Positions 1-63,180 of a stretch of DNA of 64,000 nt are shown piece by piece. The notes under the pieces were generated by a model. It searched no databases. It was not told where the DNA came from and saw nothing but the letters and a program-made list of their open reading frames with translations. Position numbers and translations under genes: made by a program. Source of the stretch: Prosopocoilus inquinatus (Eukaryota; Arthropoda; Insecta; Coleoptera; Lucanidae); contig CM069870.1 in assembly GCA_036172665.1 (NCBI GenBank), positions 56,234,212 through 56,298,211 on the forward strand, given 5' to 3'. Position 1 is the first letter of the stretch. Every line of letters begins with the position of its first letter.

Positions 1-164
1 TAATTAATGGAATGTGTTCATTTCTGACTGACTTCTTCAGTATTGCTTCGAGTTAGCAGTTCAGCTGCAGCAAAAGAATATTGCACGTGGGATTTAATAC
101 GTAGGTTTGGGAAACCAGCCAGGGCATGAAGGAATTAAGGTCCATAAATTCGTGTACGAAGTTA

Positions 165-846
165 TAGTATACCAATCAGCATTCACGGTTTTTCGATCCT
201 CTGAAGCTACGGTTGCTGCATGTCCAGTTAAACCAAAGAAACAAGCAATCATTTGCTTCGCAGCACTGCGTGAACGGACAACTTTTATTGGCTTTGGTTC
301 ATTTTGAAATATCCAAACGGTAGATTGTTGTTTACTTTCTGGCTCGTACGAATAGATCCACGTTTCGTCACCAGTAACGATGTTATAAAATAAATTTGAA
401 CTACCTCCATTGAATTTCTGGAGCATTTCTTCGCACCATTTGACACGACCCTGCTTTTGCGCTTCTGTTAAATTGTGTGGGATCCAACGACTGCAAAGCT
501 TTCGTACGTTCAAATGATCATGCAAAATCTAGTGTATTGCTTTCATGTCAATGCGGAAGGATGCTTGAATCTCACGATATGTCATATGTCGATCTCGCTC
601 AAGCATTTCACGCACAGGATCTACATTAGTGGCAACAACAGATGTTGAAGGACGACCTTCACGAAATTCGTCACTGAGAGAGGTATGTCCACGCTGGAAT
701 TCGGCAAACCAATTGTAAACACTGCTCTTTGATGGTGCTTCATCTCCAAAGGACAAATGAAGCCGATCGAGGCATTGTTTCGGCGTTAGACCACATTTGA
801 AATCATAAAAAATCATGGCACGAAAATTTTCACGCAAGATTTCCAT
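165..846 (-). pseudogene. mariner transposase, 5' part, one nonsense codon
   Basis: Cut-and-paste DDE/D transposase. ATG at 844-846 opens MEILRENFRAMIFYDF, the typical mariner N-terminus, followed by the helix-turn-helix DNA-binding region (KSSVYNWFAEFQRG, DEFREGRPSTS). A TAG at 529-531 replaces the Gln seen in copy 2 (MKAIHQ), so the frame breaks after about 105 residues, but it continues in frame through WIPHNLTEAQ and TGDETWIYSYEPESKQQSTV, which holds the first catalytic Asp. Homology ends at NADWYT; the second and third catalytic Asp are missing. Full-length relatives are about 345 residues. Clearly dead. Confidence 0.9.
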
Positions 847-16972: not shown

Positions 16973-17060
16973 AAAAAAAAATTGTTGCAATGTCAGGTCA
17001 AAAAGCGATCGTAGGATCTTACGATCGCTTTTTGACCTGACATTGCAACAATTTTTTTTT
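16973..17060. repeat. near-perfect palindrome of retrozyme sequence, 41-bp arms
   Basis: Arms at 16973-17013 and 17020-17060 are exact complements and enclose the 6-base centre GGATCT. Each arm carries ATTGTTGCAATGTCAGGTCA followed by AAAAGCGATCGTA, a piece of the 311-bp hammerhead repeat. It therefore joins two retrozyme fragments head to head. It abuts the inverted duplication that starts at 17061. Confidence 0.95.
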
Positions 17061-17109
17061 GTTCTTAGAAAACACGAAAAAAGGGATTTCCTCATTTATG
17101 TGGCAGCAA

Positions 17110-17207
17110 TCACTTCGCTAGTCGGATTAAAGAGATATTGTTCGGATTATGGCTTCGAGTCTCCGCTGTTCGAATTAGGGCATGTTTGGATTAAAGAGGT
17201 TATACTG
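17110..17207 (-). mobile_element. pogo/Tigger-like terminal repeat fragment
   Basis: Read on the minus strand from 17207 it begins CAGTATAACCTCTTTAATCC next to TA (17208-17209) and contains repeated TAATCCGAAC-like words, as in pogo/Tigger terminal repeats. No second end is present within the duplication. The same fragment lies in the partner block at about 30360-30457. Confidence 0.6.
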
Positions 17208-17224
17208 TATAGGGAAGATTTTGG

Positions 17225-17460
17225 AATCATTCATGAAACGTTAGATTTGAAGAGCTTCAGTTTGGTAATTTTCAGCAGGATGGGGCCACAACTGTGCTTT
17301 TGACTTGTTTGCAACTGTTTTGTGGTGAGTTTGGCACTTAAATCTACTTTCCCTCTGATCTTACATCGTTAGGTTTTTCAACTATTTGGCTATTACAGAA
17401 CGAGGTATTTAAAACAAGTTAATAAAAGAACTCCAAAATCAAATTACGCAGCTTCTTTTT
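17225..17460 (+). pseudogene. Tc1/mariner-superfamily transposase relic (C-terminal part)
   Basis: One frame reads NFQQDGATTVLL and, after a stop, YFPSDLTSLGF.TIWLLQNEVF. These align with the second and third catalytic-Asp regions of insect DDE transposases (FQQDGATxHTA and WPPRSPDLTPLDFFLWGYLKNKVY). Stops and lost residues show decay. Present in identical form, inverted, at about 30107-30342. Confidence 0.6.
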
Positions 17461-17499
17461 TAATTTTGATGATCGTCACTAAAAAACCTTATAATTTAT

Positions 17500-17871
17500 A
17501 GAAAAATTTTGTGCAAATCGTTTTTGATTGCAGTGAAAACCTCGAGCAGCCTCTGGACAGCTGTTTGAGCCCTGCTTGGGGCTTCTTCAGCAGAGACGTA
17601 GCTCGACATTTCCACTGCAAACAAAAACGACTTGTCCAATTCATTCGCAATTGCGATGTAAGAGTGATGAACAGATAAAATAGCGACATCTTACTATCGC
17701 TTTTTGACCTGACATTGCAGTAGGATAACAAATTGAAGCGGGTTTGCTACATAATAAGCTACCCCATGCAAGGTGGCCATGCTTGCTGTCAAAGCATAAT
17801 GAAAGTTTAAAAAAAAAATTGTTGCAAATCGTTTTTGATTGCAGTGAAAACCTCGAGCAGCTTCTGTACAG
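17500..17871 (-). repeat. retrozyme (hammerhead repeat), array A, about 1.2 units of 311 bp
   Basis: On the minus strand this is one full unit plus the beginning of a second. The word GCAAATCG recurs at 17513 and 17824, giving a 311-bp period. The unit carries no coding frame. The sequence CTTATAATTTAT at 17488-17499 is the complement of the target duplication of the locus at 29302, so this copy seems to have come here by duplication of that locus and not by its own insertion; no second target copy is visible at 17872. The right end stops inside the hammerhead, next to the cleavage-site region. Confidence 0.88.
17551..17595 (-). ncRNA. hammerhead ribozyme motif, family 2, core mutated (array A)
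   Basis: Minus-strand reading: helix I strand CTCTG, core CTGAAGA, stem II AGCCC...GGGCT, then CAAAC where GAAAC is required, palindromic helix III ACAGCTGT, cleavage base C, helix I strand CAGAG. The G12 to C change should abolish cleavage. The same change is in the copy at 29972, consistent with duplication. Confidence 0.8.
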
Positions 17872-24136: not shown

Positions 24137-25421
24137 CGTGGGCTGCTAGAAAATTTTCTGGAATCTAGTAGGTCTAAAATTGTTAGCGTTTATCAACTGT
24201 CATATTTAAATAATTTGACGTTTTTCGCATATAATTCTATTGACAATTCCTATCCAAGTGAACTAGTTTTGTTTCTTTGAGAAAAAGTAATTTTGTGTAA
24301 ACGTGGAAATCTCGCGTGAAAATTTTCGTGCCATGATTTTTTACGATTTCAAATGTGGTCTAACGCCGAAACAATGCCTCGATCGGCTTCATTTGGCTTT
24401 TGGAGATGAAGCATCATCAAAGAGCAGTGTTTATAATTGGTTTGCCGAATTCTAGCGTGGATGTACCTCTCTCAGTGACGAATTTCGTGAAGGTTGTCCA
24501 TCAACATCTGTTGTTGCCACTAATGTAGATGCTGTGCGTGAAATGCTTGAGCGAGATCGACATGTGACATACCGTGAGATTAAAGCATCCTTACGCATTG
24601 ATATGAAAGCAATACACCAGATTTTTCATGATCATTTGAATGTACGAAAGCTTTGCAGTGGCTGGATCCCACACAATTTAACAGAAGCGCAAAAGAAGGG
24701 TCGTGTCAAATGGTGTGAAGAAATGCTCAACAAATTCAATGGAGGTCGTTCAAATTTAGTTTTTTAACATCGTTATTGGTGACGAAACGTGGATCTATTC
24801 GCACGAGCCAGAAAGTAAACAACAATCTACCGTTTGGGTATTTCAAAATGAACCAAAAACAACAAAAGTTGTCCGTTCACGCAGTGCTGCGAAGCAAATG
24901 ATTGCTTGTTTGTTTGGTTTAACTGGACGTGTAGCAACCGTGGCTTTAGAGGATCGAAAAACCGTGAATGCTGATTGGTATACTACAATTTGTTTGCCGG
25001 AAGTAATCGATCAAATAAGAAGAAACAATCGAAATCGACGAATTATTCTCCATCATGATAACGCCAGCTCTCACTCAGACCGTCAAACATTGATTTTTTG
25101 GCCAACAAAAATTTTGAATTAATGACTCATTGTCCATATTCACCTGATTTATCACCTAATAATTTCATTTTGTTCCCAAATATCAAAAATAAAATGCGTG
25201 GTGAGCGATTTTCGTCGGCTGAAGCAGCGGTTGAAACATTCCGGACACTGGTTTCTGAGGTACCATCTTTAGAGTGGAAAACGTGCTTTAGAAATTGGTT
25301 CGAGCGTATGCAAAAGTGTATTGACGTCAAAGGCAAATACTTCGAGAATCAATGATACCGTTTACCAAATTTCATATGCGCTGTTTCATACCGTTTTCAG
25401 AAACTTTTCCAGCAGCCCACG
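24137..25421 (+). mobile_element. mariner transposon, full length (copy 2), 1285 bp
   Basis: Inverted terminal repeats CGTGGGCTGCTAGAAAATTT (left) and, read inward from the right, CGTGGGCTGCTGGAAAAGTT, between TA at 24135-24136 and 25422-25423. The length is the normal mariner size. It belongs to the same subfamily as the copy at 165-1019. The transposase is broken, so the copy is non-autonomous. Confidence 0.96.
24303..25354 (+). pseudogene. mariner transposase, several disabling mutations
   Basis: Cut-and-paste D,D34D transposase. Codon one is GTG where copy 1 has ATG. Order of features: N-terminal helix-turn-helix region (ENFRAMIFYDF, KSSVYNWFAEF), linker WIPHNLTEAQKKG, first catalytic Asp in IGDETW, second in HHDNASSH, third in YSPDLSPNNF, C-terminus ERMQKCIDVKGKYFENQ. 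Breaks: a TAG after AEF, a frameshift at about 24755 (after SNLVF) and another near 25090 (after NASSHSDRQT). All three catalytic Asp are still readable across the frames. With no intact frame it is dead. Confidence 0.95.
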
Positions 25422-28975: not shown

Positions 28976-29483
28976 ACAAAAGCTTAGAAGTAGAATTCTA
29001 GAATTCTATATACACTGTGATTCAGATCTCCCGATATTTTCAGGGTGAACAGAACATCAAAAAATATTTATTATTTATTTGCCGCGTGCTTATCTGTGAA
29101 TGAATACTCGTTTGCTCGAAAAAATTCAGAGCTCTTTCGAAGCGCCCGAGAGTTTCGCTGAACCAAACAAATACTAACAATAACTTGACACTTCTGAAAT
29201 TACATGAAGTGTTTTCATAAATCCTAAAAGATATTCCGACCTTTTCCAACTTAGAATTATAATTAACTTTTTTGTAGTACTTTCTTGACATAAATTATAA
29301 GAACAGATAAAATAGCTATCGCTTTTTGACCTGACACTGCAGTAGGATAGACAAATTGAAGCGGGATTTGCTCCTAATAAGTCCCCCATGCAAGGCGGCC
29401 ATGCTTGCTGTCAAAGCATAATGAAAATTTTTAGAAAAATTTTGTGCAAATCGTTTTTGATTGCAGTGAAAACCTCGAGCAGC

Positions 29484-29528
29484 CTCTGGACAGCTGTTTC
29501 AGCCCTGCTTGGGGCTTCTTCAGCAGAG
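29484..29528 (-). ncRNA. hammerhead ribozyme, family 2, intact core (array B)
   Basis: Minus-strand reading: helix I GTCTCTG paired with CAGAGGC (7 bp with one G-U), core CTGAAGA, stem II AGCCC-CAAGCA-GGGCT, core GAAAC, helix III ACAGCTGT, cleavage base C17 (GUC). All invariant core positions of a type I hammerhead are present. Helix III is self-complementary: alone it gives 2 bp with a 4-base loop, while a dimer would give 8 bp. Predicted cleavage falls between 29488 and 29489. Confidence 0.85.
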
Positions 29529-29701
29529 ACGTAGCTCGACATTTCCACTGCAAACAAAAACGACTTGTCCAATTTATTCGCAATTGCGATGTAAGAGTGA
29601 TGAACAGATAAAATAGCGACACCTTACTATCGCTTTTTGACCTGACATTGCAATAGGATAGACAAATTGAAGGGGGATTAGCTCCTAATAAGTCCCCCAT
29701 G

Positions 29702-30506
29702 AAAGGCTGCTCGAGGTTTTCACTGCAATCAAAAACGATTTGCACAAAATTTTTCTAAAAATTTTCATTATGCTTTGACAACAAGCATGGCCGCCTTGCA
29801 TGGGGGACTTATTAGGAGCAAATCCCGCTTCAATTTGTCGATCCTACTGCAATGTCAGGTCAAAAAGCGATAGTAAGATGTCGCTATTTTATCTGTTCAT
29901 CACTCTTACATCGCAATTGCGAATGAATTGGACAAGTCGTTTTTGTTTGCAGTGGAAATGTCGAGCTACGTCTCTGCTGAAGAAGCCCCAAGCAGGGCTC
30001 AAACAGCTGTCCAGAGGCTGCTCGAGGTTTTCACTGCAATCAAAAACGATTTGCACAAAATTTTTCTATAAATTATAAGGTTTTTTTGTGACGATCATCA
30101 AAATTAAAAAAGAAGCTGCGTAATTTGATTTTGGAGTTCTTTTATTAACTTGTTTTAAATACCTCGTTCTGTAATAGCCAAATAGTTGAAAAACCTAACG
30201 ATGTAAGATCAGAGGGAAAGTAGATTTAAGTGCCAAACTCACCACAAAACAGTTGCAAACAAGTCAAAAGCACAGTTGTGGCCCCATCCTGCTGAAAATT
30301 ACCAAACTGAAGCTCTTCAAATCTAACGTTTCATGAATGATTCCAAAATCTTCCCTATACAGTATAACCTCTTTAATCCAAACATGCCCTAATTCGAACA
30401 GCGGAGACTCGAAGCCATAATCCGAACAATATCTCTTTAATCCGACTAGCGAAGTGATTGCTGCCACATAAATGAGGAAATCCCTTTTTTCGTGTTTTCT
30501 AAGAAC
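29702..30506. repeat. inverted duplication, partner of 17061-17865
   Basis: Complement of 17061-17865; see that entry. This locus keeps both copies of the 12-bp retrozyme target duplication, while the partner keeps one, which suggests that this is the source and 17 kb the derived copy. Contains in inverted order the transposase relic (about 30107-30342) and the pogo-like end (about 30360-30457). Confidence 0.92.
29972..30016 (+). ncRNA. hammerhead ribozyme motif, family 2, core mutated (array C)
   Basis: CTCTG, CTGAAGA, AGCCC...GGGCT, CAAAC, AGCTGTC, CAGAG. Identical in plan to the array B motif, but G12 is C (CAAAC), so it is probably inactive. Array C is therefore not a recent exact copy of array B. 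Confidence 0.8.
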
Positions 30507-30507
30507 T

Positions 30508-31080
30508 ACTCTTTTAGAGCTGCTTTTCCTGCTTTACAGATTTGGAGAATTGGGGATTAAAGTGGGAGTATCAAGTATACATGTTTGGTGTAAACAGCAG
30601 ATTGAGGTCCGATTTCATAACCGAATTAAAAACCGAAACTTTAAAATTAAAGTGACACTCATATATACAAAACAATGCGAGAATGTAGACAAATCAGAAT
30701 CCTCTCATTCGATGATGAAATCGGGCCTGAGCTAATGAGAAAAGCACATGCGTCTTAAAATTGCTAAAAAATTGGCAACATTTGAACATAATTTTTGACA
30801 ATTTTGCAAATACCTCCCACGCCAGTTACTAGAATTTTCAAACAGCACAGGCCAGTAGATTCTCCTTAGAAAAACTGCTATACAAAGCCCAACCTTCTGT
30901 CGATGCAAAATAATCTCAATAAAAGCACGTCAAATCCTAAAAAATTGTGAATTCAATATTCCGTCGTAAATCCAAAAGTGAAAACTCATTATCCGTTGTG
31001 ATTTTCAATGGATGCGGTTGTAACTTCTTTTTAATCAATTTGTAACAAGTGCAGCTTAAAGCGTGTCATGGCACGGCCAT
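30508..31080. other. unassigned DNA
   Basis: Nothing identified between the duplication and the diverged retrozyme. Confidence 0.6.
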
Positions 31081-31081
31081 A

Positions 31082-31225
31082 GTTTGACGTTATTTCAGCC
31101 GAGTCGTTCGGATTGCGATGGAGTTTCTCGAGCTACTCTTCTGTTGATGAGACATTAATTAGGGCCGAACTAGTTATCCAGAGAATGCTTGAGATCCCCA
31201 CTGTAATTTAGTCGACTTGCAGCAA
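31082..31225 (+). repeat. strongly diverged retrozyme fragment (copy G)
   Basis: Follows the unit in order: GAGTCGTTCGGATTGCGATG for CAAGTCGTTTTTGTTTGCAG, then CTCGAGCTAC, the hammerhead region, CCAGAGAATGCTTGAG for CCAGAGGCTGCTCGAG, CACTGTAAT for CACTGCAAT, GACTTGC for GATTTGC. Many substitutions show that it is old. Confidence 0.65.
31139..31183 (+). ncRNA. decayed hammerhead motif, family 2 (copy G)
   Basis: TTCTG, then TTGATGA for CTGANGA (C3 lost), GGGCC near the second stem II strand, GAACTAGTTATC for GAAACAGCTGTC, then CAGAG. Order and spacing are kept but C3, A15.1 and the helix III symmetry are damaged; expected to be inactive. Confidence 0.55.
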
Positions 31226-31229
31226 GCTT

Positions 31230-33140
31230 TAAAATGGGTAACAAAAGCTTGTCTTTTTACAGAGTTAATTTTGAAAATGATGTATGGGGTTTCTTTTACA
31301 CCGTGTTGTCAAATTAACATCATTCCAGTTGTTATATCCATAATTACCGGTCTTTAAAAATCGATTAGTAACATCCCAAATATGAAATTACCTAAAGTAC
31401 AACTTTGAAGAAGAAAACTGTTTCATTCTTTCAATTCAATTCGTCCAACAATAAAAAGCGCAAATAAATTCATTAAAACAATATGATGGAAATTCAAGTA
31501 CATAATTATTATCATAATTATAATGAAAATTGTGCGAAATCAGGATCTCGTCTACTCGAGATACTCGTCTGCCGCATTGCATAAAAAATGCAACAATAAG
31601 TGTGTCATTTTTGCACGTTCCAATTAAGAATAGGGTAATTAGAATGTTTTGCATAAAAGGCGTTTGGCAAGGCCTTAATTGATGCTGACCGTCTTGAAAC
31701 CTTGAGCTTTGGACTGGACTCTCCTGCCACCAGAGCATAAACCGATTGTGATGCAAAATCTCGGAATGTATAAATAAATAGAAGTGAATCAATAAGTCAG
31801 TGTTAATCAGAAGTAAAGATAAATGATAATTAGTGAATCAGTAATTATAGGTAGGCAGTTGCGTCGCAGGCTGGCCTAAGGGTCATGCCATTCGCAGTTT
31901 AAGTGTTACTTAATATCGTAATTGAAGGTTAAAGTGAGTGAGGGATCTTTATTAATTAATTAAAAATGTTAGAATACAAGTAAAATTCAAGGTTGTGTGA
32001 AAAAAAGTAGATTAAATAAAATATCTTTTTTATGGCAAGACTATCTTATTATTATGGGCGACTAATTATCAAAGTTAAAAGATAATCAAATCAATTTAAA
32101 TTAATTCTATATTCCTCAACGCGACAGTTCTTCAGCTAGATTAAGAGAGAAGCAAAATATACCCGTTTGAAAAGGTATTTTGAAATGACTGACATACAGT
32201 AATCAAAATTAATGCAAAACGTTTGTATGCAGTCAATTAAAAGCTAATTAAAGAAATGTAATTGTTAAACTTATAGACAATGAAACATGTAGATGAGCGA
32301 TTCTTGTGAATAATTTGGAGCGGACATAACACAAGTAGAGTTGATTAAATTAAATATGGCATGGCTTAGGGCCGCATGCAAACTGGAAACTACAGGAACA
32401 TGACGTGACACAAGATCTAATTAGAAAATAATTGACGTCCATTGTCTGGAGAGCTGTGACCGTACCGGCCATCCCACTATCCATACACTTCAGATGTACG
32501 TACGATGGCGCATAATGAACCCGAACATACCGTTCGCCAGGTAATGTTACGTCGCCGTTCGCATGCCAACAACTAAATTAATGTATCAAACGCATAGTTC
32601 GTTTCCGTGGAAATAGATAATTAATTAATTAATTAATTGCGGAACAATTCGGAACTGCCTCTCGTTGAATTTAATTATTTACTTATCACAAAATCCTGGA
32701 ATGGAATCATTCTCGTGTTAACCTTAATGAAAATACATCGCAGTAATTATTACTTACTACTAAATTATTTTATGGCGTTTCCTAAATTAAACACACTAAA
32801 ATTTATGGTATGTAATTTGTTCAGTTTAATTTCACGAAAACTTAACCTTGACGAAATAAATCAGTATATACCTACAGGTATCTGACTACAAAAGAAAATA
32901 ATCATCTTTATCGTTCATTCCGTGTAATTCTCTAAAATGTATTTCAAATTCCAAAGCCTCTTTTTCTTTAAGGAACAATTCTTTGAGAAATTTCATTTTT
33001 TGCTGATTCCTATTTGTCAGTTGTCTGTGTCCATTTTAGCAAGACGTTGTTTCGCAATTAAATTGCAGTATGAAAAGATATAACGGTGTCTTGCGAATGA
33101 ATCGTAAATAGTTCATAAAAAAAAAACATCTCTCTTTAAA
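31230..33140. other. unassigned DNA; (TTAA)n near 32619-32638
   Basis: No gene or element recognised. GC-richer short islands at about 31850-31900 and 32400-32560. A TTAA/AATT microsatellite of about 20 bp at 32619-32638. Confidence 0.6.
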
Positions 33141-33401
33141 TACACTGCTCCAATAAATTAATGCACCACGCAATAAAATAAAAAATGTCGATTTTTTCTT
33201 CAAAATTTATAAACAGATAAAATAGCGACATCCTACGATCGCTTTTTGACCTGACATTACAGTAGGATAGACAAATTGAAGCAGATTTGCTCCTAATAAG
33301 TCCCCCATGCAAGGCGGCCATGCTTGCTGTCAAAGCATAACGAAAGTTTTAAAAAAAATTTGTGCAAATCGTTTTTAATTGCAGTGAAAACCTCGAGCAG
33401 C

Positions 33402-33406
33402 CTCTG
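33402..33406 (-). ncRNA. hammerhead of retrozyme D, 3' helix I strand (split)
   Basis: CTCTG in the plus text is the CAGAG strand of helix I. The rest of the ribozyme continues at 34969-35008 beyond the inserted TIR element. Confidence 0.75.
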
Positions 33407-34195
33407 TACAGGGTGGATTAATTTCGATGTCTCTTATGGGCACCTCTGTAACTATAAGAGATAGAAAAAGCTAGTGGCCAAGTCTCGATCTCCTTTTTGG
33501 AGATTAAGTCAATACTGTAAACAAATCTTCTTTTGTTTTCAAGTTATAGGCAAATATTGCCATTTTCGACTTTTCGTTTTTCGGTCATATCTCGTTTATT
33601 TCTAGAAATATTGAAAAACTGCTTGAACATTATTAGGACACTTTTTGGAATACAATTCAGTGGTGTAGTTGATTTTTTAATATTTCCTTAAATTTTCGAG
33701 ATATAACATAAAGTTATGTTTTTTTTAATGGAAATTATAGTAGACAATGACCTCATTAAATAGAGATTTTTTTTCTGTTTTCAAAAATATATACTTTGTT
33801 GGATTTATTTTTTTATAACTAACAGGAAAAACTGTCATTTTTGTTATTATCGTTGCGTTAATATCCCAGTCTCAATAGGCTGAATTCAAAACGGTGCGAA
33901 TTTTTTGTTTTACAAAAAATTTTAACGAGCTTTGAAATATTTTTACAGTTTTGACTGCGTAAATAATTGCCTAATCGCATTAATTTGCAAAATTCCGTTT
34001 TATCGTTTTGAGCGATCGTTCTGATAAGAGCTCCTGTCTGACTTTCTATTGAAAATGACTTTATCATTCATCACGTTTAACAGAACATTTTAACAAGAAT
34101 GTTTCAAACTATGTATTATTAAAACGTGTTATGACCGAAAATTTATAGAAAAATTGTTTTTTTTAATCTTTGGATGGTCAACATTGCACGAACAT

Positions 34196-34233
34196 CATCA
34201 ACGTGTCACTATCGGTTGATAGCCTTCGTTAGG
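34196..34233 (-). ncRNA. degenerate family 1 hammerhead-like motif
   Basis: Minus-strand reading: CTAACGA (G5 lost), stem II GCTATC...GATAG, TGACACGTTGATG for CGAAACGTTGAGTG. Spacing fits the PLE-type motif at 34424, but two core positions are changed. It lies 191 bp from the end of that better copy, so the two could be remnants of one PLE 3' region. Confidence 0.45.
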
Positions 34234-34423
34234 AAGAAGCGTTGAACGTTGGTGCAATTTTCAGCGTCCGTTTAAAGGTTGAAAACAATTTTTATACAAT
34301 TTCCATCGGACAAGAAACTATTTTAATAAAAAGATTTATAATTGAAGTCGACTCTTATCCGATGAAATATGTGAGAGAAAATAGTTTTTAACCTTTAAAA
34401 GGGACACTATGAAATCGCAAGAA

Positions 34424-34465
34424 CACTCTACGTTTCGCTATCGCTTTATAGTTTCGTCAGGAGTG
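34424..34465 (-). ncRNA. hammerhead ribozyme, family 1 (PLE type), intact core
   Basis: Minus-strand reading: helix I CACTC paired with GAGTG, core CTGACGA, an unpaired A, stem II region ACTAT...ATAGC, core GAAA, helix III ACGT, cleavage base A (GUA). Helix III is the self-complementary ACGU with no room for a loop, so a monomer could hardly form it; dimer action is implied. Sequence around it differs from the PLE at 49 kb, so it belongs to another PLE subfamily or an old copy. Confidence 0.78.
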
Positions 34466-34968
34466 AAAAAATGTAAAATAAACAACATAACGGTAATAAT
34501 AACTAAATTAGAACTGTATTAAGATTTCTTTTTTTTTGTTTCTCTTGAGTTATATTTTATTAAAAACACTAAAAACAAAAACAAACACAAATAGTAAAAT
34601 ATAAACAAAATCGGACATGTATCAAACTAGATTTGCCTGCATTCGTATTTAATAAAAACAATAAAGCTTTTGCCAGATCGATCGCGATGGGTGCTACATT
34701 TCTCAAACGGAATTTTGTAAAATAAAGTGAATATGAAATTTTTTTTTTTTTATTTTTTTTGCCCGTAAAATATAATTTTACGGGCAAAACTGTCTAAAGG
34801 TTTGAAAGTTTGTTAATATTTAATAAAAACAAAAGAAATGTCGGCCAATTTTTGTTTACACTATTGACTTAATCTCCAAAAAAGAGATCGAGACTTGGCC
34901 ACTTGTTTTCTTCTATCTCTTATAGTTACGGAGATGCCCATAAGAGACATCGAAATTAATCCACCCTG

Positions 34969-35008
34969 TACAGCTCTTTTAGCCCTGCTTGGGGCTTCGT
35001 CAGCAGAG
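34969..35008 (-). ncRNA. hammerhead of retrozyme D, main part (split, decayed)
   Basis: Minus-strand reading: CTCTG, CTGACGA (a valid CUGANGA core), AGCCC...GGGCT, then AAAAG where GAAAC is expected, then AGCTGTA. The 12-15 core is damaged, and the motif is also interrupted by the TIR element between T and A of the cleavage triplet. Confidence 0.75.
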
Positions 35009-35489
35009 ACGTAGCTCGACAGTCCCACTGCAAACAAAAACGACTTGTCCAATTTATTCGCAATTGCGATGTAAGAGTGATGAACAGATAAAATAGCGAC
35101 ATCTTACGATCGCTTTTTGACCTGACATTGCAGTAGGATAGACAAATTGAAGCAGATTTGCTCCTAAAAAGTCCCCCATGCAAGGCGGCCATGCTTGCTG
35201 TCAAAGCATCATGAAAGTTTTTAAAAAATTTATAGTAACTGGCATTGCTGTGAAATAGCTAAGCATACGAGGTTCATTTATTGACATTTCATTAACACTT
35301 CGGGGTGATTCCATACAATTAATCACTTAAGCTCATTAACCAAAAAATCAATTTCTATTTTAATGTTTAAATTTCGGTTTTATTTTCAAAGGGACTTTAT
35401 TGTTTTTTGTTTTTTGTGTTTGTACGTCATTATGCCACACGAATTTTGAAATTCGACAGAGAAGAATGCACTCAAGTAGTGGTATAGTT

Positions 35490-46950: not shown

Positions 46951-46998
46951 GCAGCCCTGACGAAGTTCTTCTGCAGTGAAGAACGAAACGTCGGCAGT
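46951..46998 (+). ncRNA. hammerhead ribozyme, family 3, intact core
   Basis: Core CTGACGA at 46957-46963, one unpaired A, stem II GTTCTTC (46965-46971) paired with GAAGAAC (46978-46984) over the loop TGCAGT, core GAAA, helix III ACGT (46988-46991), cleavage base C at 46992 (GUC), helix I GCAGCC paired with GGCAGT (3 bp at the core, an A-A mismatch, then 2 more pairs). All invariant bases of a type I hammerhead are present; the 7-bp stem II is the strongest part. The flanking CAACAG-rich leader and GTAGAAGAAATTCGAG tail also appear at 7790 and 58946, so it belongs to a dispersed repeat. Confidence 0.78.
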
Positions 46999-49010: not shown

Positions 49011-49071
49011 AAAAAATAATAAGTACAAAGTTTTTTTAATCTCAAACCGGACAGAAAAATGAAGGGAAACA

Positions 49072-49113
49072 CACTCAACGTTTCGCTATAGATTTATAGC
49101 TTCGTCAGGAGTG
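49072..49113 (-). ncRNA. hammerhead ribozyme, family 1, left PLE arm
   Basis: Minus-strand reading: helix I CACTC with GAGTG, core CTGACGA, an extra A, stem II GCTATA-AATC-TATAGC, core GAAA, self-complementary helix III ACGT, cleavage base U (GUU). Identical over 42 nt to the right-arm copy. It lies downstream of the minus-strand PLE frame in the same orientation, as is known for HHR in PLE terminal regions. Confidence 0.88.
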
Positions 49114-49238
49114 AAAGAAAGTAAATAAAGAAGTTGTCAAGAGAAACAAGTCGTCAAGAGAAACGAAAAGGTAACATGATTTTTAAACTAAACTACGAGT
49201 TGTTTGGAATAAAAGTAACGAGAACTAAAAAAGCTACT

Positions 49239-49260
49239 TTTTTTTTTTTTTTTTTTTTTT
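49239..49260. repeat. T-run in left PLE arm
   Basis: Homopolymer T of about 22 bases, the counterpart of the A-run at 52024-52047. It lies between the frame and the hammerhead, so it is internal to the element and is not a poly(A) tail at the insertion edge. Confidence 0.95.
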
Positions 49261-49290
49261 TAAATATATATAATTAATTAATTGACAGAT

Positions 49291-50670
49291 CTATATCTTT
49301 TTTAAAGAGTCCAAAAAACTACAAAATATGTCATTTAAATTTTCAAAGTCCGTACGTTTATTAATAGAATTTCGAGACATTTTAATTTTACACATTTCTA
49401 TGAAACGTCTTTTAAAAATATTAGATTCACTGTACAAAATGTCAGTATTATCAAAATCAAAATTATGATTATTTACTAATGAATGCTCTACAAGCATTGA
49501 ATGATTTTGATTATTTTTTTGAATATGATATTTATGTTGGTCTAAACGTTTTTTTAAATTTTGGCTCGTTTCACCTATATAAACAGAATTACAATTTGAA
49601 CATTTGATTTCATAAACCACGTTAGGTTGTTTTAATTTCGGTATTTTGGTTTTTAAATTTGAAAAAATTAAATTTAAATTATTCACAGATTTACTGGCTA
49701 AAATTAAATTATGTTTTTTGAAAATGTGTTTAAATGTATTGTGTAATGGTTCAATATAAGGCAAAGATATGTATTTATGATTCGAAGTTTGTCTAATGTT
49801 TTTAGAGACATTTGAATTTTGTAAGTATTTAATACGATTTTTAATTACTGATTCAATAAGATTTATTGGATAAGAATTTTGAATAAGAGTTTTCTTTATT
49901 AAATTTAAGTTATCATAAATGAAAACTTTATCAGAAAGTAAAATAGCTCGATCAGTTAATGAAATAATAGTTGCAATTTTATAATTTTTAGGTGTGTACG
50001 AGTGAAAATTTATGTACCTACCTGACCAGGTAGGTTTATGAAACCAATTAGTAATTAATTTATCATTCTGTCTGATAATATTTACATCAAGAAAACTCAA
50101 TGAATTATTATTTTCTTTTTCTACTGTAAATTGTAATCTATTATGAAAAGAATTAAATTTATTTAAAACAAAATCTACCTTATCAGAAGGCAAAATCAAT
50201 AAAATGTCATCTACATAACGAAAATATAACGTTAAATCGAATGATAAAGAGTTAATAACAGATTTTTCTAGTTCTTGCATAACAATTTCAGCTAAAGCCG
50301 GAGATAAAGGAGAACCCATTGCTGTACCAAAAATCTGTTTATAAAATTTATCATTGAAAGCAAAATAAGATGTTTCAAAACATAAATCAACTATTTCTAA
50401 AAAGTTACCTTTGGAAATATCAGTAAAATCTTTAATCTCTAACCACCTATCATTTATACTTTTTAAAGCTAAATCTTTAGGAATGTTAGTAAATAAAGAA
50501 ATAACATCTAAAGAAATTATAATGCAATTATTTGGTACAGTTATTTGTTTTAATTTTTCTACGAGTTCAAAAGAATTTTTTATAAAATATTCTGATTTAC
50601 TAGTAACCTGAGTAATGATTTTTGAAATAAATTTAGATAAGAAATTTTCTAAATTTATTTCAAAAATCAT
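49291..50670 (-). CDS. PLE reverse transcriptase + GIY-YIG endonuclease, 5'-truncated (minus copy)
   Basis: 459-codon frame, intact to its stop. PLE proteins copy RNA at a nicked target and cut DNA with a GIY-YIG nuclease. Visible: motif A SLDVISLFTNIP (about 53-64), motif B GTAMGSPLSPALAE (115-128), motif C YVDD (152-155), SLSFLDVNI (190-198), the PLE signature KPTWSGRYINFHS (212-224), CSNC zinc-ligand pair (357-360), GIY-YIG as VVY...YIGETS (351-369), R375, H379 and E425. Full-length PLE proteins are roughly 800 or more residues; the N-terminal fingers before motif A are missing. Residues 1-11 and the ATG at 50668-50670 come from the opposite arm and the centre, so this start is an accident of the palindrome. 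Probably not functional as is. Confidence 0.92.
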   Translation of the reverse strand: MIFEINLENFLSKFISKIITQVTSKSEYFIKNSFELVEKLKQITVPNNCIIISLDVISLFTNIPKDLALKSINDRWLEIKDFTDISKGNFLEIVDLCFETSYFAFNDKFYKQIFGTAMGSPLSPALAEIVMQELEKSVINSLSFDLTLYFRYVDDILLILPSDKVDFVLNKFNSFHNRLQFTVEKENNNSLSFLDVNIIRQNDKLITNWFHKPTWSGRYINFHSYTPKNYKIATIISLTDRAILLSDKVFIYDNLNLIKKTLIQNSYPINLIESVIKNRIKYLQNSNVSKNIRQTSNHKYISLPYIEPLHNTFKHIFKKHNLILASKSVNNLNLIFSNLKTKIPKLKQPNVVYEIKCSNCNSVYIGETSQNLKKRLDQHKYHIQKNNQNHSMLVEHSLVNNHNFDFDNTDILYSESNIFKRRFIEMCKIKMSRNSINKRTDFENLNDIFCSFLDSLKKI

Positions 50671-51994
50671 TACTCAGGTTACTAGTAAATCAGAATATTT
50701 TATAAAAAATTCTTTTGAACTCGTAGAAAAATTAAAACAAATAACTGTACCAAATAATTGCATTATAATTTCTTTAGATGTTATTTCTTTATTTACTAAC
50801 ATTCCTAAAGATTTAGCTTTAAAAAGTATAAATGATAGGTGGTTAGAGATTAAAGATTTTACTGATATTTCCAAAGGTAACTTTTTAGAAATAGTTGATT
50901 TATGTTTTGAAACATCTTATTTTGCTTTCAATGATAAATTTTATAAACAGATTTTTGGTACAGCAATGGGTTCTCCTTTATCTCCGGCTTTAGCTGAAAT
51001 TGTTATGCAAGAACTAGAAAAATCTGTTATTAACTCTTTATCATTCGATTTAACGTTATATTTTCGTTATGTAGATGACATTTTATTGATTTTGCCTTCT
51101 GATAAGGTAGATTTTGTTTTAAATAAATTTAATTCTTTTCATAATAGATTACAATTTACAGTAGAAAAAGAAAATAATAATTCATTGAGTTTTCTTGATG
51201 TAAATATTATCAGACAGAATGATAAATTAATTACTAATTGGTTTCATAAACCTACCTGGTCAGGTAGGTACATAAATTTTCACTCGTACACACCTAAAAA
51301 TTATAAAATTGCAACTATTATTTCATTAACTGATCGAGCTATTTTACTTTCTGATAAAGTTTTCATTTATGATAACTTAAATTTAATAAAGAAAACTCTT
51401 ATTCAAAATTCTTATCCAATAAATCTTATTGAATCAGTAATTAAAAATCGTATTAAATACTTACAAAATTCAAATGTCTCTAAAAACATTAGACAAACTT
51501 CGAATCATAAATACATATCTTTGCCTTATATTGAACCATTACACAATACATTTAAACACATTTTCAAAAAACATAATTTAATTTTAGCCAGTAAATCTGT
51601 GAATAATTTAAATTTAATTTTTTCAAATTTAAAAACCAAAATACCGAAATTAAAACAACCTAACGTGGTTTATGAAATCAAATGTTCAAATTGTAATTCT
51701 GTTTATATAGGTGAAACGAGCCAAAATTTAAAAAAACGTTTAGACCAACATAAATATCATATTCAAAAAAATAATCAAAATCATTCAATGCTTGTAGAGC
51801 ATTCATTAGTAAATAATCATAATTTTGATTTTGATAATACTGACATTTTGTACAGTGAATCTAATATTTTTAAAAGACGTTTCATAGAAATGTGTAAAAT
51901 TAAAATGTCTCGAAATTCTATTAATAAACGTACGGACTTTGAAAATTTAAATGACATATTTTGTAGTTTTTTGGACTCTTTAAAAAAGATATAG
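50615..51994 (+). CDS. PLE reverse transcriptase + GIY-YIG endonuclease, 5'-truncated (plus copy)
   Basis: Mirror of the minus copy; the two translations differ only at residues 8-11, where the asymmetric 10-base centre is read (ENFL in the minus copy, DKKF here). Catalytic Asp of motif A is D55, motif C is YVDD at 152-155, the GIY-YIG domain covers about 351-430. The frame is open throughout, which suggests a young insertion or an error-free recent copy. As for its twin, the ATG at 50615 lies in the other arm, the finger domain is absent and no promoter can be seen. The two frames overlap by 56 bp at their starts. Confidence 0.92.
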   Translation: MIFEINLDKKFSKFISKIITQVTSKSEYFIKNSFELVEKLKQITVPNNCIIISLDVISLFTNIPKDLALKSINDRWLEIKDFTDISKGNFLEIVDLCFETSYFAFNDKFYKQIFGTAMGSPLSPALAEIVMQELEKSVINSLSFDLTLYFRYVDDILLILPSDKVDFVLNKFNSFHNRLQFTVEKENNNSLSFLDVNIIRQNDKLITNWFHKPTWSGRYINFHSYTPKNYKIATIISLTDRAILLSDKVFIYDNLNLIKKTLIQNSYPINLIESVIKNRIKYLQNSNVSKNIRQTSNHKYISLPYIEPLHNTFKHIFKKHNLILASKSVNNLNLIFSNLKTKIPKLKQPNVVYEIKCSNCNSVYIGETSQNLKKRLDQHKYHIQKNNQNHSMLVEHSLVNNHNFDFDNTDILYSESNIFKRRFIEMCKIKMSRNSINKRTDFENLNDIFCSFLDSLKKI

Positions 51995-52023
51995 ATCTGT
52001 CAATTAATTAATTATATATATTT

Positions 52024-52047
52024 AAAAAAAAAAAAAAAAAAAAAAAA
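52024..52047. repeat. A-run in right PLE arm
   Basis: About 23-24 A residues, counterpart of the T-run at 49239. Confidence 0.95.
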
Positions 52048-52172
52048 GTAGCTTTTTTAGTTCTCGTTACTTTTATTCCGAACAACTCGTAGTTTAGTTT
52101 AAAAATCATGTTACCTTTTCGTTTCTCTTGACGACTTGTTTCTCTTGACAACTTGTTTATTTACTTTTTTTT

Positions 52173-52214
52173 CACTCCTGACGAAGCTATAAATCTATAG
52201 CGAAACGTTGAGTG
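52173..52214 (+). ncRNA. hammerhead ribozyme, family 1, right PLE arm
   Basis: CACTC / CTGACGA / A / GCTATA-AATC-TATAGC / GAAA / ACGT with U17 / GAGTG. Predicted cleavage between 52209 and 52210. It lies about 180 bp downstream of the plus PLE stop codon and is oriented with it. Known HHR in PLE have the same minimal helix III. Confidence 0.88.
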
Positions 52215-52309
52215 TGTTTCCCTTCATTTTTCTGTCCGGTTTGAGATTAAAAAAACTTTGTACTTACTATTTTCATCGGTCAAGAACAAACTTCAATTAA
52301 AATAATAAT

Positions 52310-54232: not shown

Positions 54233-54261
54233 ATTACACCCTATATACTAAAATAGTAAAG

Positions 54262-54488
54262 AACAGATAAAATAGCGACATCTTAGGATCGCTTTTTGAT
54301 CTGACTATTTTATATGTTCATCACTCTTACATCGCAATTGCGAATAAATTGGACAAGTCGTTTTTGTTTGCAGTGGGAATGTCGAGCTACGTCTCTGCTG
54401 AAGAAGCCCCAAGCAGGGCTGAAACAGCTGGACAGAGGCTGCTCGAGGTTTTCACTGCAATCAAAAACGATTTGCACGAAATTTTTAT
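54262..54488 (+). mobile_element. retrozyme E with perfect 12-bp target duplication
   Basis: Flanked by AAAATAGTAAAG at 54250-54261 and 54489-54500. The first 43 bp are retrozyme sequence in minus orientation (starting AACAGATAAAATAG); it then switches to plus orientation at CTATTTTATATGTT and runs through the hammerhead to GATTTGCACGAAATTTTTAT. So it is a short head-to-head form of the same structure seen at 29302-30067. Non-coding. Confidence 0.9.
54393..54437 (+). ncRNA. hammerhead ribozyme motif, family 2 (retrozyme E)
   Basis: GTCTCTG / CTGAAGA / AGCCC-CAAGCA-GGGCT / GAAAC / AGCTGGA / CAGAGGC. The catalytic core strings are intact, but the U before the cleavage base is G (GGA instead of GUH), which breaks the A15.1-U16.1 pair; activity would be reduced or lost. 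Confidence 0.8.
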
Positions 54489-54515
54489 AAAATAGTAAAG
54501 GAGACTGTGGTTTAA

Positions 54516-54590
54516 AAATTAACCTCCGCCCACAATAATTTTTATATCCGTATTACGGAAATAAAAATTATTGTGGGCGGAGGTTAATTT
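54516..54590. repeat. perfect 30-bp inverted repeat (hairpin)
   Basis: 54516-54545 and 54561-54590 are exact complements (AACCTCCGCCCACAATAATT within each arm) around a 15-base loop that itself contains TCCG-TATTA-CGGA. It lies just outside retrozyme E. A related 22-bp direct repeat, TAATTT(G or CA)ATTACACCCTATAT, brackets the retrozyme-plus-hairpin block (about 54227-54246 and 54585-54606). Confidence 0.95.
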
Positions 54591-54606
54591 CAATTACACC
54601 CTATAT

Positions 54607-60894: not shown

Positions 60895-61289
60895 TAAACA
60901 GAATGTTTCAGTCAAGGCGGATTCCTTCATAACTCTCTAATTACTCATTTTACAAAAAAAAATGTTTCAATTGAAATTTATTTCCTTTCATGTGAAGTAT
61001 ATTTTAAAATGTTTCTAATAAATTACTTGATAACATGTGGAGCATACTTTAAAGTATTACATTTTCGGATTCCGGACTGAATTTTAATGGGACTTTGTGT
61101 ACCACACATACGGTCTAATCTAAACCTTTTTGGGTTATTCAATTTTTTTTTTTAAATAAGGCCATTGCAGTACTACTACAGTCGTTCTCGAACGAATCGT
61201 TCATTTTATTAGTATGAAAGACTCAAGAGATTCGTTCTTTAAAAAACACTCCAACGACAACACATTGCATTAGGATTCAGAAATTGAAG
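60895..61289. other. unassigned AT-rich DNA
   Basis: Nothing identified. Confidence 0.6.
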
Positions 61290-61290
61290 A

Positions 61291-61335
61291 TTCTGCTGAC
61301 GAGGCCTTAAATAGGGCTGAAACAGCTGTACAGAG
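61291..61335 (+). ncRNA. hammerhead ribozyme, family 2, intact core (copy F)
   Basis: Helix I TTCTG with CAGAG (one G-U), core CTGACGA, stem II GGCC...GGGCT, core GAAAC, palindromic helix III ACAGCTGT, cleavage base A (GUA). N7 is C here and A in the other copies, stem II and its loop differ, yet every invariant base is kept. Confidence 0.82.
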
Positions 61336-61384
61336 GATGTTTGAGGGATCCATTGCAATGAAAAACAACAAAATTTCTTATTTT
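61291..61384 (+). repeat. diverged retrozyme fragment F
   Basis: Hammerhead followed by GAGGATGTTTGAGGGATCCA for GAGGCTGCTCGAGGTTTTCA, then TTGCAATGAAAAACAACAAAATTTCTT for the unit's end. It abuts a transposase relic whose C-terminal part it replaces, so it probably inserted there. Confidence 0.75.
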
Positions 61385-63107: not shown

Positions 63108-63180
63108 GACCGTGTGGCCTAATGGATAAGGCGTCGGACTTCGGATCCGAAGATTGCAGGTTCGAGTCCTGTCACGGTCG
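63108..63180 (+). tRNA. tRNA-Arg (anticodon TCG)
   Basis: A 73-nt cloverleaf. The acceptor stem GACCGTG pairs with CACGGTC, and the discriminator base is G. The D arm is GGCC-TAATGGATAA-GGC. The anticodon stem TCGGA/TCCGA encloses the loop CTTCGGA, giving anticodon TCG, which reads CGA (and CGG) arginine codons. The T arm is CAGG-TTCGAGT-CCTG. Internal A box TGGCCTAATGG and B box GGTTCGAGTCC are intact, no CCA is encoded and there is no intron. A run of T at about 63190 fits an RNA polymerase III terminator. It is the only host gene in the window I am sure of. Confidence 0.97.

Follow-up and report, generated by a model that had tools for sequence, protein, structure and literature searches.

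The window analyzed here is a 64-kb stretch of DNA with a GC content of 33.4%, taken from the 650-Mb assembly of an insect-like host. At positions 29302-30067 it contains a retrozyme insertion of 766 bp, which is composed of two arms of a 311-nt unit joined 5'-to-5'. The antisense arm (29302-29710, minus strand) comprises ~1.3 units and runs from unit position 192 down to 84. The sense arm (29704-30067, plus strand) comprises ~1.2 units and runs from unit position 309 onward to ~50. Unit positions refer to a reference unit at window positions 29707-30017, numbered from base 29707 on the hammerhead-bearing strand. Both outer ends of the insertion, ~191 on the left and ~50 on the right, are 3' ends in terms of the sense RNA. 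The insertion is bordered by a 12-bp target-site duplication, ATAAATTATAAG, with the left copy at 29290-29301 and the right copy at 30068-30079 (both on the plus strand). The coordinates 29302-30067, which an initial annotation of the window had given for this part of the repeat, are therefore exactly those of the inserted DNA. The two arrays that it described there are instead the antisense and sense arms of a single inverted composite.

BLAST inside the window recovered each of the seven places at which the repeat had been reported. Of these, six can be placed along the reference unit with an identity of 79%-100%, and the seventh (31082-31225) reaches only ~66% in the same search and is a decayed copy, a relative of the ribozyme region spanning 31102-31230 (plus strand). 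The copy at 17493-17871 (minus strand) is a single arm of 1.2 units with a CAAAC core and has its flank in common with 30075-30530, as judged by eye. The sequences at 17056-17490 and 30075-30530 are the same in opposite orientation (by eye), and each adjoins a retrozyme copy; probably, one insertion was copied along with its flank in a segmental duplication. The place at 16973-17060, previously listed as a unit, is instead a small palindrome (16986-17047) in which unit positions 142-173 are present twice.

The copy reported at 33212-35224 is present, but it is a single one-arm copy (33209-35231), interrupted inside its ribozyme by a ~1.56-kb transposon. Its left part (33209-33411, minus strand) runs from unit position 194 down to 301, and its right part (34966-35231, minus strand), beyond this TIR transposon, runs from 308 down to 41. 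The transposon (33412-34965) has inverted repeats of ~120 bp and is flanked on both sides by CTGTACAG, a duplication read by eye. A hammerhead of the type found in Penelope-like elements (PLEs) lies within it at 34429-34460 (minus strand). A short head-to-head composite with one end of each type is located at 54262-54488, and its duplication AAAATAGTAAAG, read by eye, at 54250-54261 and 54489-54500. This composite adjoins a near-perfect, MITE-like hairpin (54498-54604), and the two together are flanked on each side by ATTACACCCTATAT. The copy at 61262-61366 belongs to an older subfamily; its main arm is 79% identical to the unit, and it contains an intact core with a GTA triplet (61296-61330, plus strand). 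Transposase fragments, which we take to be mariner-like, were observed at 94-528 (minus strand) and 24760-25122 (plus strand).

The period of 311 bp given by the initial annotation was right, as the 17493-17871 copy is longer than one unit and the gaps between same-strand neighbors agree with this period. Among the 100 hammerhead matches listed first on contig 1, the 8 same-strand gaps of <1.5 kb were 311, 312 (four times), 624, 1,024, and 1,077. The unit is non-coding, with a longest open stretch of 96 codons around the circle. The family has multi-lap tandem arms and no LTRs; the laps inside an arm are direct repeats, and the whole insertion is usually inverted. A tRNA/5S-type SINE, one of the assignments by which the retrozyme reading could have failed, was not borne out for the unit, because the only tRNA/5S match of the window lies outside it. 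This match is a tRNA-Arg (TCG) at 63108-63180 (plus strand), the sole Rfam match at cut-off within the window. Nor does the unit look like part of a coding element, since 38 of the 106 elements described below are flanked as composites by a duplication of their own.

The 311-bp unit carries a predicted type I hammerhead with three helices and an open helix I, a prediction that the sequence supports. A strict scan of the whole window for the invariant core and stems found a minus-strand copy at 29523-29489, a plus-strand copy at 61296-61330, and no others. These are exactly the two copies, in 29484-29528 and 61291-61335, for which a complete core had been claimed. The core at 29484-29528 (minus strand) has all invariant bases (CTGAAGA, stem II, GAAAC, AGCT, and GTC). 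The sense arm and the 17493-17871 copy carry a broken core, with CAAAC in place of GAAAC. In the sense arm (29964-30030, plus strand), the hammerhead is predicted to be inactive owing to this replacement of G12 with C. Cleavage is predicted after unit position 305. The predicted circle of the unit (-111.9 kcal/mol) contains a long rod, the tip of which is formed by the ribozyme.

Genome-wide, a 33-base hammerhead piece (from the end of stem II through the core and helix III to the beginning of helix I) had 22,444 matches with up to 2 mismatches and 13,975 exact matches, and the reversed-pattern control gave 0 both times. The CAAAC variant of this pattern was rare, with 18 exact matches vs the 13,975 for GAAAC. 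The counts given below come from 106 elements, which are the best-scoring matches of three DNA queries with 40 candidates each and are not a random sample. By common flanks, they form 92 groups; one group is made up of L086, L096, L097, L099, and L106, another of L091-L093, and L064 and L066 are one insertion. The sample comprises 72 young and 34 old-subfamily elements, with 2 of the 34 (in L100 and L101) being young copies nearby. The figures for core bases, pairing, variant sharing, and ribozyme-to-end distances count duplicated loci as separate elements.

G12 was retained in 69 of 71 young elements and in 31 of 34 elements from old-subfamily loci. At position N7, 65 of 71 young elements had A, and 32 of 33 old ones had C or T. 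We recovered 92 ribozymes, 61 of them distinct, and aligned 56; those of odd length (L023, L042, L064, L068, and L072) were left out. In the aligned copies, pair 10.1/11.1 was A-U in 48 and G-U in 7, and the base preceding the cut was C in 27, A in 25, T in 4, and G in 0. Standard pairs filled 95.4% of 952 cells, compared with 20%-43% for slid partners and already 94.9% for within-column shuffles. Changes on both sides were observed at 3 of 17 pairs, a number reached by 121 of 500 shuffles. The number of double-change cells (5) was reached by 10 of 500 shuffles, and the covariation score by 9 of 500. The clearest double change, AGCT to TGCA in helix III, was found in L096 and L097, two members of a single group of duplicated loci. 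Since the ribozyme core is kept while free positions vary, cutting seems to be selected at some step.

The initial annotation had held that a covariance model without a hammerhead hit would speak against its reading, and this, taken literally, is what was found at the curated cut-off. At the gathering cut-off, Rfam gave no hammerhead in the window or in the 20 loci scanned out of 128 (53,730 bases), and none over the whole window at E <= 10. The best score was that of Hammerhead_HH9, with 16.6 bits against a cut-off of 52 and an E of 0.39 that refers to 661 bases only. We take this miss as a limit of models built from other families and not as a refutation, while counting it as a failed test. 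Rfam was set aside as arbiter of the retrozyme ribozyme, as it stayed below cut-off in the window and in the 20 loci. The weak matches to microRNA families in the window were rejected as noise, since they lie mostly on palindromes and several are equal on both strands.

The repeat is a non-coding mobile element that fits the known class of animal non-LTR retrozymes. Its earlier description as a hammerhead-bearing family of retrozyme type agrees with the core being kept over two subfamilies ~20% apart, with the duplications, and with the very high copy number; its spread through circular RNA, the other part of that description, we only infer. The metazoan non-LTR retrozymes described by Cervera and de la Pena (2020, PMC7229834) are alike in their non-coding unit of ~170-400 nt, type I hammerhead, and short helix III. 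They are also alike in low GC content, thousands of copies, multi-lap arms, and duplications of >4 bp when present. However, they are described as direct tandem repeats, whereas the present family is usually head-to-head with two fixed ends; the word "inverted" is absent from the main text of that paper. Plant LTR retrozymes (PMC4918200; PMC11722881, PMC7761336) are alike in being non-autonomous and hammerhead-bearing, but differ in their type III hammerheads, LTRs, primer-binding site, and 4-bp duplications. In the open-access literature, we found no earlier description of the 311-bp family or of head-to-head retrozymes and no paper combining twin priming with a hammerhead. Among the open-access matches listed, none had retrozymes and the head-to-head form in one paper. 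As far as found in this literature, the two-ended head-to-head retrozyme form and its match to a resident PLE are novel.

The main feature of the family, overlooked by the initial annotation, is that most of the examined copies are head-to-head composites with two fixed ends. Two opposed arms were present in 81 of 106 elements: both end types (~50 and ~191) occur together in 69, both ends are of one type in 3, and at least one end lies elsewhere in 9. The remaining elements are single-stranded in orientation (24 of 106) or of odd order (1 of 106). With one element per flank group (92), there were 71 two-armed elements (59 mixed, 3 same-type, and 9 other) and 21 single or odd ones. The old subfamily has the same head-to-head architecture. 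Among the 100 exact matches listed first on contig 1, neighbors closer than 1.5 kb were in the order -+ in 18 cases, -- in 6, ++ in 2, and +- in 0. For neighbors of the same 100 matches that were >1.5 kb apart, the order was +- in 25 cases, ++ in 22, -- in 20, and -+ in 6.

A duplication score of at least 11 was obtained for 38 of 106 elements (37 of 92 groups), and none of 318 mismatched flank pairs reached it. Where the score was at least 10 (44 elements), the first and last bases of the inserted DNA peak at 191 and 50, and the duplication is 12 or 13 bp long in 30 of them. GT follows the duplication at 21 of 58 retrozyme strand ends, compared with a nearby flank rate of 0.045. The cut site therefore looks symmetric, as GT follows on both strands. 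The inner joints were scattered (Rayleigh p ~0.05), with 7 of 62 lying within 8 nt of the ribozyme cut where 3.4 were expected. This test was restricted to loci from a query other than the window composite; the junction 84|309 is over-represented because one of the queries was that composite itself. The scatter lends no support to an RNA 5' end that is fixed where the ribozyme cuts. The inner junctions lean slightly towards the ribozyme, and some templates may therefore be linear. Target-RNA overlaps at the two starts averaged 1.40 vs 0.76 and 1.87 vs 1.02 in a rough simulation. As the cause of the exact start, such overlap exceeds this simulation only modestly, and it was kept as a weak effect.

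The two arms of an element resemble each other more than they resemble other elements. Divergence was 4.0% between opposite strands of an element, 3.4% between rows of one strand, and 5.5% between elements. Agreement at 11 polymorphic sites was 0.93 for opposite arms, 0.91 for same-strand rows, and 0.64 between elements. A rare variant common to both arms was present in 15 of 61 elements vs 51 of 1,960 control pairs. Variant by variant, sharing amounted to 76 of 724 for opposite arms, 36 of 6,429 between elements, and 110 of 557 within the same arm, a count in which the long arrays L012, L037, and L043 weigh heavily. In the long arms of L012 and L037, near-identical laps occur beside laps that differ, a pattern suggesting a mixed template or exchange inside the array at a later time. 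The cleavage site was crossed without a break by 152 of 193 arms. The template was therefore closed or uncut.

The same window contains a head-to-head PLE at 49023-52298 (boundaries by eye), with a minus arm on the left that lacks a tail and a plus arm on the right that has one. Both arms have a minimal type I hammerhead motif, at 49077-49108 in the minus arm (minus strand) and at 52178-52209 in the plus arm (plus strand). A near-palindrome is located centrally in this pair (by eye), and variants common to both arms were seen by eye only. We initially considered ACTTCAATTAA as the duplication of this PLE, but it is partly PLE tail; the likely duplication, read by eye, is AAAATAATAA. Another PLE-type hammerhead core with a different stem II (CTGACGA ... 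GAAACGTC) lies outside this PLE, at 46957-46992 (plus strand). The relatives of the PLE protein carry reverse-transcriptase and GIY-YIG Pfam domains. In the best 120 of 507, they are at most 45% identical, and those with names are mostly from ants and bees, and also from a ladybird, a seed beetle, flies, and a parasitoid wasp. PLE hammerheads reportedly act as dimers, as Lunse et al. are said to have described in 2017. Such dimer-acting hammerheads have a short self-complementary helix III, as does the retrozyme hammerhead, which differs from them in its longer helix I with an internal loop.

Head-to-head order is also common among the other PLE copies of the genome. For 92 scored of 7,459 candidates, neighbors closer than 12 kb were in the order -+ in 17 cases, ++ in 7, -- in 6, and +- in 0. 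In a PLE array at C3:41.90-41.94 Mb, the minus copies lie on the left and the plus copies on the right, mostly ~2.8 kb apart. All nine fetched PLE pairs have one outer end without a tail, and the other extends through a tail of ~31 nt. The tailless end stops at CTTT(C/G)TAC, sometimes up to about three bases further. PLE duplications are ~12 bp long (11-15 bp by script; those of L118 and L119 were read by eye, because the script met a gap and a chance 10-letter match). GT was found at 6 of 18 PLE strand ends, a count that has no background rate of its own. In L110 and L111, a PLE array with the duplication ATAAAAAATAGC lies within a retrozyme copy. In L116, L117, and L129, a retrozyme starts exactly at the edge of a PLE duplication, which may represent one event or two.

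The distance from the predicted ribozyme cut to the first end is similar in the two elements. In the PLE it is 54-57 nt, and the second, tailed end lies 88 nt from the cut (7 of 9 pairs measured). In the retrozyme, these distances were measurable in 36 (first end) and 17 (second end) of 44 elements. The first was 52-63 nt in 33 of 36, most commonly 55-57; the others were 47, 357, and 364, the latter two being about one unit longer. The second was 187-200 nt (~196) in 15 of 17, and 207 and 275 in the others. The match of the first distance between retrozyme and PLE could, by our estimate, arise by chance at a few per cent. A likeness of the start-site sequences (TTTCTA..ATTTTCAT) was striking by eye but no better than shuffles: the best alignment was reached by 262 of 500 shuffles, and focused alignments by 106 and 247 of 1,000.

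The retrozyme has a composite architecture with fixed ends, duplications, a target motif, and variants shared by its arms, and the PLE has the same features (the arm variants by eye only). This common footprint points to the PLE as the copying machine. We consider that the retrozyme is quite probably a non-autonomous parasite of a PLE in the same genome and is copied by double-ended priming, the PLE being the only resident retroelement compared. Several observations speak against this reading. The start regions of the two elements are no more alike in sequence than expected by chance, the distance from ribozyme to second start is ~196 nt for the retrozyme and 88 nt for the PLE, and 24 of 106 retrozyme elements have one arm only. 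The slight lean of the inner junctions, the Rfam miss, and the in vitro results for a lizard PLE given below also count against it. With regard to the copying enzyme of retrozymes, the PLE is a strong candidate in PMC7229834, and LINEs or PLEs are named in a 2024 review (PMC11722881). The grounds for the PLE in PMC7229834 are shared hammerheads, the tandem form, and co-existence; to these, the present family adds the common insertion footprint.

What is published on PLEs of the Penelope/Poseidon type (PMC11167929, PMC3846280) shows the same head-to-head copies, tailed and untailed ends, and AT-rich targets, and their head-to-head form was already known (PMC3846280). According to Frangieh et al. 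(2024, PMC11167929), the purified protein of a lizard PLE, for which a dimer is predicted, cuts and extends both strands and starts reverse transcription at two sites inside the RNA, between which the genomic tail lies. This lizard PLE resembles the retrozyme in having a hammerhead in its repeat and two internal starts. Its start at 111-118 and its ribozyme cut at position 26 of the reading frame are 85-92 nt apart, which is near the 88 nt of the present PLE. The retrozyme differs from PLEs of this type in lacking a protein gene and in its second start, which lies ~141 nt beyond the first and not ~31. In vitro, the lizard protein used the same start sites on both strands, its preferred cut motif was ATT and not GT, and insertion was unchanged in hammerhead mutants (PMC11167929). 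Therefore, neither a circular template nor a rule of one site per strand follows from that work.

The catalysis and circularity of the retrozyme, and the PLE as its enzyme, are what we infer from this footprint in the following model. From the array transcripts, the hammerhead would release units that close into circles of 311 nt, unless the transcripts are used as uncut multimers; the steps of self-cleavage and ligation are borrowed from published animal retrozymes (PMC7229834). At an AT-rich site, the PLE protein would make one cut in each strand, with ~12 bp between the cuts and often with GT directly after each. Both 3' ends released in this way would then act as primers on one retrozyme RNA, with starts near position 50, ~56 nt beyond the predicted ribozyme cut, and near 191. 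Extension of each cDNA would proceed towards the RNA 5' side, possibly for several rounds of the unit. The cDNAs would then be joined 5'-to-5' with respect to the RNA, and the 12-13-bp duplication would arise when the staggered cut is repaired. Each finished insertion would have used both starts, one per target strand, which is the pattern seen in the genomic copies of both retrozyme and PLE. We regard as evenly balanced the proposition that a single PLE complex reads one RNA, circular or multimeric, from both fixed internal starts simultaneously, each start serving one cut target strand. All complete insertions, of the PLE and of its retrozyme parasite alike, would then originate as head-to-head pairs with one end of each kind.

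The template may also have been an uncut tandem transcript and not a circle, with no need of the hammerhead for insertion; we hold this to be a serious, if lesser, possibility. The lizard PLE mutants, which still insert (PMC11167929), argue for it. The 152 of 193 arms that cross the cleavage site need an uncut or closed template, and the variants shared by the arms fit either one. Against an uncut template stand the abundant circles that published animal retrozymes yield (PMC7229834). The conservation of the core while free positions vary argues in the same direction.

It is unlikely that a LINE mobilizes the retrozyme and that the head-to-head form results from ordinary twin priming, as in L1 inversions. 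Twin priming joins arms head-to-head and leaves one duplication outside the complete insert; in L1, its inner site is variable. The target-RNA overlaps at the starts, somewhat above the rough simulation, are also in line with it. However, both retrozyme starts are fixed, and the first end is not poly-A. Furthermore, the resident PLE, the only retroelement compared, has the same architecture, duplication length, GT, and ribozyme-to-end distance.

Self-priming, either by snap-back of the cDNA or on an antisense template, as proposed for the rotifer Penelope (PMC3846280), appears about as improbable. The central near-palindrome in the PLE pair of the window resembles that of the rotifer elements described in the same work (PMC3846280), and the close joints of 27 with 40, 10 with 26, and 45 with 41 could be snap-back products. 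Against this, many joints connect unlike unit positions, such as 84 with 309 or 213 with 291. Such joints are therefore not snap-back palindromes, and snap-back was rejected for the retrozyme. Self-priming would also not place a second fixed end at the other flank. We give very little credence to a chance hammerhead in a foldback/MITE-like DNA transposon or in a satellite that recombination has shaped: foldback elements have inverted arms and a duplication around the whole insert, which the retrozyme resembles, but its ends at ~50 and ~191 are not inverted repeats of each other, some arms are several laps long, the inner joints are scattered, and the core is conserved over subfamilies.

For PLE integration, the copies in this genome add evidence of two starts, one per target strand, with head-to-head joining on one template. 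This offers an alternative to the account of PLE inversions by self-priming on antisense RNA (PMC3846280). The family is large enough for such features to be counted, and the question of the enzyme that copies animal retrozymes becomes a simple in vitro test. If a single PLE complex does use two starts at once, the conserved distance from the ribozyme to the first start would represent mimicry of the PLE RNA by the retrozyme.
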